Source: Salipiger mangrovisoli (GTDB lineage: Bacteria; Pseudomonadota; Alphaproteobacteria; Rhodobacterales; Rhodobacteraceae). From it: a DNA stretch of 64,000 nt. Positions 49,446 to 52,900 of this stretch are shown one piece after another. The first letter of the stretch is position 1; each line of letters opens with the position of its first letter. Position numbers and translations under genes: made by a program. The notes under the pieces were generated by a model. It was not told the DNA's origin. It worked only from the letters and a program-made list of their open reading frames with translations, and did no database searches. The stretch covers positions 62,001 to 126,000 of the forward strand of contig NZ_JADFFK010000012.1 of assembly GCF_015223355.1 (NCBI RefSeq), written 5' to 3'.

Positions 49446-49928
49446 TCAGACCACCGGCAGATCGTCCACGAAGACATACTCCAGGAAGTCGATCCGCAGC
49501 GGCTCGCCGCCGTTCGGCGTGCCCGAGAGCTCCAGCAGGTCCCCTGCATTGAGCGCGATCGCTGTGAGCTCGCGTTCGGCGTAGGACGTGCTGTCGACGA
49601 TGGCCGAACCGGCATCCGCATCCCAGACGAAGCTGTCGATGATCTCGCCGTTCACCAGCACCTGCAACTGCGCCTGCCCGTCGGATTCATCGTAGTAGCC
49701 CAGCTTGAGATTGTAGATGCCATCCGCCGCGGCGAAGCCGAAGCCTGCCACATGCGCCCCCGAGCCGGTCGCCTTGATCAGCTGGTCGTTCGAGGCGTGG
49801 CCGTTGTCCGCCACGACGAAGCCGTCCAGGGACATGACCTCCGCCTCGACCCGCACCGGAGCGACGCTCGGCGGCGGGCTGTCGGGCACCGCGACGTTGA
49901 AGCTGGTGAGCGCCGCGTTGCCCGCCAC
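49446..49928 (-). pseudogene. Displaced C-terminal segment of the giant protein
   Basis: This 160-residue frame begins with the same AGNAALTSFNVAVPDSPP that ends the normal part of the giant protein and continues into a well-formed final domain (VRVEAEVMSLDGFVVADNGH, VAGFGFAAADGIYNLKLGYYDE, WDADAGSAIVD, in parts) of carbohydrate-binding/lectin-like beta type. It ends FLEYVFVDDLPVV, acidic then hydrophobic, like many type I secretion signals. It is cut off from the main frame by the 74-bp duplication. It has no start signals of its own, so it is probably translated only when the frame is restored. Confidence 0.8.
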
Positions 49929-52900
49929 CGCGTTGCCGCTGGTGTCGGCGGGCTGTCGGGCACCGCGACGTTGAAGCTGGTGAGCGCCGCGTTGCCCGCC
50001 ACCGCGTTGCCGCTGGTGTCGAGGACCTCGCTGCCCGCCAGCGACACCGTGTAGGTGCCGTTGTCCGCCACGTCCCAGCTGCCGCCCGGTGCCGCCACCG
50101 TGTAGGTGGCGCTGCGCGGCGTGCCGTCGCTGGCGAGGTTCAGGCTCACCCCGGTCACCGCCAGGGCACCGCCCGGACCGCTGACCGTGATGTCGCCCAC
50201 GTCGATGCTCGAGACATCCACCGCCACGTTGTCGGTGAAGGTCACCGTCACCGTGGTGCTGGCCCCGCCGCCCGCGGTGATGCCCGTGGCGCTGGCCGAG
50301 GCCACCGTGGGCGCCTGCTCGTCGCTGGGCGGCGAGATCGGCACGGCGACGTCGAAGCTGGTGAGCGCCGCATCCGCGGCCACCGCGTTGCCGCTGGTGT
50401 CGAGGACCTCGCTGCCCGCCAGCGACACCGTGTAGGTGCCGTTGTCCGCCACGTCCCAGCTGCCGCCCGGTGCCGCCACCGTGTAGGTGGCGCTGCGCGG
50501 CGTGCCGTCGCTGGCGAGGTTCAGGCTCACCCCGGTCACCGCCAGGGCACCGCCCGGACCGCTGACCGTGATGTCGCCCACGTCGATGCTCGAGACATCC
50601 AGCGCCACGTCATCGCTGAAGGTCACGGTGATCGAGGCGGTTGCGGCACCGGCGACGGTGATGTCGGCCGCGTCCACCGCATCGACCACGGGGGCGACAA
50701 GGTCCTCGGGATCGACGCTGACCTGCTCCAGCGTGAAGGAGCGGAAGTCGAGGATGTAGCCGTTCGATGCCTGCGCCCCGTCGAAGGTGAAGCGCAGCGT
50801 CTGCAGGCCGGCGCCGAGCGTGACCGTCGTGGCCGCGGTCTCGGCGAAGACCGTACCGCTGAACGAGGTCGACGTCCCGTTGCTGTCGGGCAGCGCGAAG
50901 ACCGCGAGCGGCGTGCCGTCGTCGAGCGTCGCGGTGACGGTATTGCCGCCGATCGGCGTCTTGGCGTTCACGCTCAGCGCGTAGCTGCCGGCCTGGGCCA
51001 CATCGATGGTGTATTCGACCCATTCACCGGATTGGATGTAGCCGATGTCATTGGTCGAGCCGACAAGCTCCACGTCGGTATCGGCGCGCAGCGGGTGCGA
51101 GCCATCGCGTCCGGGATCGTCGTTCCACGAGACCCCCTGCCCGCCGCTGTCGAAATTGGCCGCGGCCACGGTGAGGCTGTCGTCCAGCACCGGGGTCGGG
51201 CCGGGATAGGCCTGTTGCAGCGGGGCCGGCGTGCTGTCGGGATCGAAGAAGTCCGGCGTGCCGTCGAGATCGCTGTCGATCACCAGCGCATCGTTCACCC
51301 CGTCGCCGTTCGCGTCCTCCTCGGCAGAGAGCTCGTAGCCCTGCACGTTGGTCACGATGAACATGTGGTCGTTGTAGTCGAAGTTCGACCCGCCCGGATA
51401 ATCCTGGATGCCGATGTAGGTGCCTTCGATGACATTGCCCGCCGCATCCTTGGCCTGGAAGAAGCGGATGTAGTGACCTTCGTTCGGCGGCGAGATGTTG
51501 TAGGTGTCATCCGCCACGTTGGCATCGGGATCGCTCCAGGCCGAGAAGGTCGGCTGGCCGTCCACCGTCACCCGCAGGCCGAAGGGATCGTCGCGGTCGA
51601 TGCTCGCCCGCGCCACCCCCGGCTGCGCGCCCGGACCGGAAATCAGCCCGTCCGGAAGCAGGGTCTGGTACTGGTTGTCATCCTGCGCATAGAGCTCGGT
51701 CAGCGCGCCGTTCGACACGTCGTGCAGGCTGAGCCGGCTGATCCCCGCGCTGAGATAGGCCGCGATCTGGATCACCTCGACCGGCTTGCTGTCGTCGAGC
51801 CGCTGCAGGTAGGGCAGCAGCACCTCGTCGCCCACCGTCTCGACCACACCGCCGTTGGACAGCAGACCCTGCGCCACGTCGGTCGAGTAGCCGAAGGCCT
51901 GCACGATCTGCGCCACGGAAGGCTCCTCGCCGCCCTCGGACTGGATCTGCGCCAGACCTGCAAGCGCGATCTCGCGAACCCCGGCGCTGCTGCCGATGGT
52001 CAGCAGACCGTCGTAGGACGTCGCCTGGTTGTCGTCATTGGGATCGATCCCGATGAAGGTGACGGTCAGTTGCACCGAGGCACCGGGGGCAATGACCTGT
52101 CCCTCGGCGAGGCCGCTGAGGGTGAAGGCCCCGGTCACCTCCAGATCGTCGATGGTCAGATCGCTGATGCCATCGTTTGTGATGGTGAGCACCGCGCTGT
52201 CGCGGAACGCCTGATTGCCGTTCGCCGGATTGTCGATCCGCGAGAACACCAGCCGGTCGTCGGCGGCGGCATCGTCCAGCCCCGCGATGGTGGCCACCGC
52301 GCCGTAGTAGACCGGCGCGACCCCCTCGATGATGAACATGTTGTCGTTGTAGTCGTAGTTGATGCCCGTGTAGTCCATCACCCCGAGGAAGACATTCTCG
52401 ATGGCGATGCCATCCTCGTCCACCGCCTGGAAGACGCGCACGGTGTAGCCGTCCGAAACCTCGTTGCCCTCGGCGTCGAAGACCTGCCCGCCGCTGACGG
52501 TGTAGCCCCCTCCGGGGTAGCGCGCGTCAAGTTCTTCCTGCGTGGGCGAGCCCGACCCGGTCGGGTTCAGGCGCGGGTCGGTGGACAGGCTGGCGACCTC
52601 GATGCCGAAGAGATCGTTGCCGGCCCAGCCGTCGGGAATATCCGCCGCGCTGAACACCCGCGTCGCGAAGGACGTGCTGTTCGACTTGGGCAGCAGCGTC
52701 TGGTTGTTGCTGCTGAGGTGGCTGAGAAGGCCGACGTCGGCCCCTTTGTCGCCCGGCGCGTGGATCCCCATGCTGGCCCCCGAGGGGCTGTGGAAGGCGG
52801 CAATCTGGGTGATCCGCGCCTGCGTCACGCCATCGGCGAGCCGCCAGTAGGGCGAGAGGATCTCGGTCTCGTCCACCGGCAGGTAGATGTCGTAGAAATC

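Follow-up and report, generated by a model that had tools for sequence, protein, structure and literature searches.

A 74-bp tandem duplication, probably a genuine lesion private to one genome, displaces the last domain of a giant CBM-like and cadherin-like protein

In the window, that is the whole 64,000-nt stretch of DNA analysed here, a giant gene carries near its 3' end two adjacent copies of a 74-bp sequence, which probably (at about 60%) represent a real tandem duplication, private to the window's genome, that has cost the giant protein its end. In the proposed mechanism, replication slippage or template switching would have produced a second, adjacent copy of the 74-bp stretch, with a 2-bp junction (CG) on the margin of an array of domains that appears to recombine in this family of genes. 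Because 74 is not divisible by three, about 55 out-of-frame residues would take the place of the last CBM-like domain and of the natural C-terminus. If real, the duplication neatly illustrates how an out-of-frame accident can arise on the margin of a recombining array and deprive a giant protein of extracellular type of its end; if it is an assembly slip, it shows the k-mer size imprinting false pseudogenes in repeat-rich proteins. The coordinates of the features are collected in Table 1.

Table 1. Features at the 3' end of the giant gene (positions of the window)
Feature	Position	Strand	Description
Giant ORF in the assembly (4,037 aa)	49778..61891	-	CBM6/CBM35-like and cadherin-like regions, followed by a stretch resembling dehydrogenases (by eye) and two Big-like domains; reads out of frame from about codon 3983 on
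223-bp exact direct repeat, first copy	50379..50601	-	Big-like domain 1; offset 381 = 127 codons
223-bp exact direct repeat, second copy	49998..50220	-	Big-like domain 2; extends over one edge of the 74-bp duplication
Unit 1 of the 74-bp tandem duplication	49946..50019	-	in frame with the giant gene
Unit 2 of the 74-bp tandem duplication	49872..49945	-	not in the frame of the upstream ORF; its other frame enters the final domain
Terminal 138-aa domain, predicted CBM35/CBM6-like beta-sandwich	49446..49862	-	displaced frame, no internal stop; AlphaFold mean pLDDT 88.6
Terminator-like hairpin after the displaced stop	49385..49446	-	12-bp stem, then TTT

The initial annotation had described two adjacent 74-bp units with 76 matching bases at 49872-50021, and both TRF (49872-50021, period 74, 2.0 copies, 100% match) and direct comparison agree with it. 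In particular, the two units are identical (0 of 74 differences), the identical run at offset 74 measures 76 bp, and the two bases beyond 74 are the CG common to both breakpoints, giving a junction overlap of 2 bp. A chance repeat is ruled out: when the gene region was resampled 20 times at order 1, exact runs at offsets of 12-399 reached at most 14, against the 76-bp run observed. Other exact tandem duplications (minimum exact run 30 bp and 0.9 of the period; period lengths of 12-600) were sought in 1,958,023 of the 6,350,258 bases of the window's genome, a search that would miss duplications across the ends of the searched stretches, and none of about 74 bp was found in them; that the duplication is one of many such in the genome is thereby ruled out within the bases searched. 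Two smaller exact tandem duplications were noted, in L169 at 17743-17831 (period 42, run 47) and in L156 at 7020-7077 (period 13, run 45).

The duplication lies inside the ORF and changes its frame. The gene starts at the ATG at 61891 (MPIETIYIQG), and the motif MPI[ED]TI[YF]IQG also opens the gene in the relatives G010 and G011; from this ATG to the stop at 49778 there are 4,038 codons including the stop. The minus-strand ORF is thus consistent with the shift of frame and the stop at 49778 that had been reported from the sequence, and the translation after the shift is, as reported, rich in Arg, Ser and Thr and unlike the ends of the relatives' proteins. The span from the same ATG to the stop of the displaced frame at 49446, minus 74, corresponds to exactly 4,124 codons including the stop, so the arithmetic of the initial annotation for the removal of one unit holds; its statement that the gene is open for more than 11.8 kb is right as to the open span and needs a small correction, to 12.1 kb from the likely ATG. 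The intact final domain that it placed in the displaced frame is also recovered, as is the hairpin behind it, a 12-bp stem about 26 nt past the stop at 49446 that is followed by TTT (MFE -32.7 kcal/mol, z -3.2).

The relatives considered were the 19 other genomes of the genus, one genome per species. With a 300-aa query the gene body was found in six of the 19, at 81-95% identity, and in all five relatives with a homologous Big-CBM end (G005, G009, G010, G011 and G015; G011 read by eye) one unit is present, in frame to the stop, two units occurring only in the window's genome. A single open frame spans body and end in G010 and G011 (4,719 and 4,524 aa, respectively), while in the drafts G005, G009 and G015 body and end are on different contigs and would be joined in the same way. 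The sixth genome, G014, was left out of the count: its gene body is on C3 (G014:C3:68536-69432), where the end profile has no match, and a similar Big-CBM end, with one unit in frame, belongs to a different giant protein on C2 (G014:C2:689298-692684), which rules it out as an orthologue with a matching end. This split suggests that the end module moves between genes. As judged from these sequences, the duplication is private to the window's genome; the stop at 49778 is not conserved, and a conserved truncation is ruled out by the single in-frame unit of the five relatives, which speaks for a lesion.

The duplication adjoins an array that changes by other steps. The two Big-like domains just upstream are 95% identical over 300 nt, of which 223 bp are exact, and in the relatives Big and CBM domains alternate and exact repeats stand at whole-codon offsets: 790 bp at offset 813 and 138 bp at 384 in G010, and 218 bp at 384 in G009, compared with 223 bp at 381 in the window. 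The array is evidently homogenised by recombination, and the 74-bp duplication is its exception, being out of frame and having 2 bp of junction homology; the variation by whole codons in G010 and G009 counts in favour of a lesion. The 790-bp repeat of G010 (L047 = G010:C2:455000-474000, at 14603 and 15416; offset 813 = 271 codons) amounts to a complete Big-CBM unit duplicated in frame in an orthologue.

The displaced domain shows raised pN/pS in the window's lineage alone. Its mean pN/pS is 0.54 in the five pairs that include the window and 0.38 in the ten relative-relative pairs, and a codon bootstrap of the difference, which treats codons and not lineages as independent although pairs share branches, gives 0.05 to 0.32, with 0 of 300 and 0 of 500 replicates at or below zero. 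When G014 is left out, all five window pairs (0.45-0.63) stand above all ten relative pairs (0.23-0.44), relative pairs involving G014 giving 0.52-0.62; none of the five relatives, when taken as the focus, gives such an excess in this domain. In six upstream pieces compared across four relatives the window is without excess (0.217 vs 0.229). Smaller positive upstream differences are found for G011 (0.264 vs 0.197) and G015 (0.246 vs 0.210), which have no known lesion, and the raised pN/pS is for this reason not specific and counts as evidence of modest weight. It suggests that the domain went unused during part of the history of the window's lineage, and so favours a real lesion above either an assembly error or a switch in frequent use. 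The identity of the units says that the duplication is young and the relaxed constraint that it is not so young, a tension that counts against a lesion and that later homogenisation could reconcile.

A mis-joined or collapsed array of near-identical Big and CBM domains in a short-read assembly with k=77, with cells that carry an in-frame gene, is the more serious of the alternatives, although a clearly less probable one than the lesion. The window's genome is a draft of 95 contigs whose ends (148 of 190 compared, 42 masked ends dropped) overlap by exactly 77 bp in 18 pairs and by 19 bp in two, with no overlap of other length between 15 and 200, which is the mark of de Bruijn assembly with k=77. 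The 76-bp run is k-1 of such an assembly, a suspicious coincidence; in fact, 76 bp is the longest run that a k=77 graph holds without a loop, so that a real duplication of that size could just be assembled, and the same number is at once an argument for an error and one against it. The 223-bp exact repeat, longer than k, lies alongside, and contigs of the three drafts G005, G009 and G015 end inside the array. Moreover, the window has fewer Big-CBM units than G009, G010, G011 and G015 (G005 is unreadable), as if its array had collapsed: against its two Big-like domains and one CBM stand four Big-like and three CBM markers in G010. A short orphan piece may also have been filtered out, the smallest contig being 1,022 bp; against this, no orphan internal CBM is present among the 17 matches in G000, where 21 contigs read as N. 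Overlap joiners generally require more than a 2-bp overlap, and the 2-bp junction would be small for a spurious join of that kind. The raised pN/pS confined to the displaced domain in the window's lineage is not expected of an error either, and the duplication is probably present in the cells.

The on/off switch suggested in the initial annotation, in which gain or loss of one unit would toggle the C-terminal domain, and perhaps export, within a population, is improbable, and the two alternatives named beside it, a recent lesion and an assembly error, fit better, the one through the pN/pS and the other through k=77 with the 76-bp run and the 223-bp repeat. Reversible phase variation by spontaneous sequence duplication is described for the capsule genes cap3A, cap8E and tts of the pneumococcus (Waite 2001, 2003, as related in PMC4022640 and PMC4243769), and repeat or duplication switching is the topic of PMC12817950 and PMC11661271. 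The likeness is that a tandem duplication within an ORF disrupts it and might in principle be removed again, and the displaced domain here is without an internal stop; the difference is that the pneumococcal change is described as reversible, whereas here one state is seen in one assembly, in another kind of gene and organism (PMC4022640, PMC4243769). The switch is further opposed by a single state per species (one genome each), all five relatives with a homologous end having one unit, by just two units joined over 2 bp, by the isolation of the duplication in the bases searched, and by the raised pN/pS, which argues against a domain in regular use. A bolder and very doubtful extension makes the edge of a self-recombining Big/CBM array a mutable site: short duplications arising there out of frame would reversibly deprive a giant glycan-binding protein of its terminal CBM and its export end, and a bacterium of Alloyangia type would alternate between secreting and non-secreting cells. 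Least credible is that the shorter protein, or a separately translated C-terminal ORF, constitutes the regular functional product of this strain: an ORF of 160 aa does exist (49446-49928, GTG at 49928), but the five relatives fuse the domain in frame and the Arg/Ser/Thr-rich tail is unlike theirs.

As regards the protein that the lesion would have shortened, Pfam families above curated cut-offs include CBM_6 (154 bits), CBM_35 (122), Cadherin (89) and Big_5 (26); one match, Endotoxin_C (38 bits, residues 1127-1238 of the giant protein, P0001), is tentatively read as one more CBM-type beta-sandwich. The terminal domain matches no family in Pfam up to E=1 or in NCBIfam up to E=0.01. Its predicted model resembles CBM35, CBM36 and CBM6 modules and MiXBM 7ehg (TM about 0.6-0.7 on the query) and a profile search gives a weak match to the last of these (E=0.0019), which points to the beta-sandwich fold of the CBM6/CBM35 superfamily; the domain is modelled as the same sandwich as 2w1w and 7ehg (TM about 0.7) but has 18-23% identity to such modules, in addition to its lack of a family. 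In the window's genome there are 15 matches to this type of domain, in proteins of different make-up. Across the genus, 7 of 20 genomes (G000, G005, G009, G010, G011, G014 and G015) contain 13-26 matches to it each and the other 13 contain none, and the host proteins, by eye, differ in make-up. Among 72,556 plasmid records four matched the query and none over 80% of it.

No N-terminal Sec signal was seen by eye in the giant protein. PrtD-type exporter substrates carry their signal at the C-terminus, and the window's genome encodes such an exporter, with two matches over the cut-off on contigs C88 and C33, the window's own contig being C3. Loss of the C-terminus may therefore matter beyond one CBM, and would impair glycan binding or export. 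SiiE-type giant Big-domain proteins secreted by a type I system, as presented in PMC5466336, are similar in that the window protein is very long, has repeated Big-like domains and is without a Sec signal by eye; the window protein differs in being mostly CBM6/CBM35-like and cadherin-like and in having the two PrtD-type exporters on other contigs. Short, partly acidic, hydrophobic tails end several proteins of G000 that have the terminal-type domain (contigs C44, C16, C9 and C13; L195, L197, L198 and L073), with DGIIG, GDLPVV, SDSLLS and SDTLLN, and the displaced frame of the window ends at 49446 with DDLPVV. Compared by eye, DDLPVV, GDLPVV and SDTLLN are suggestive of a possible shared export signal.
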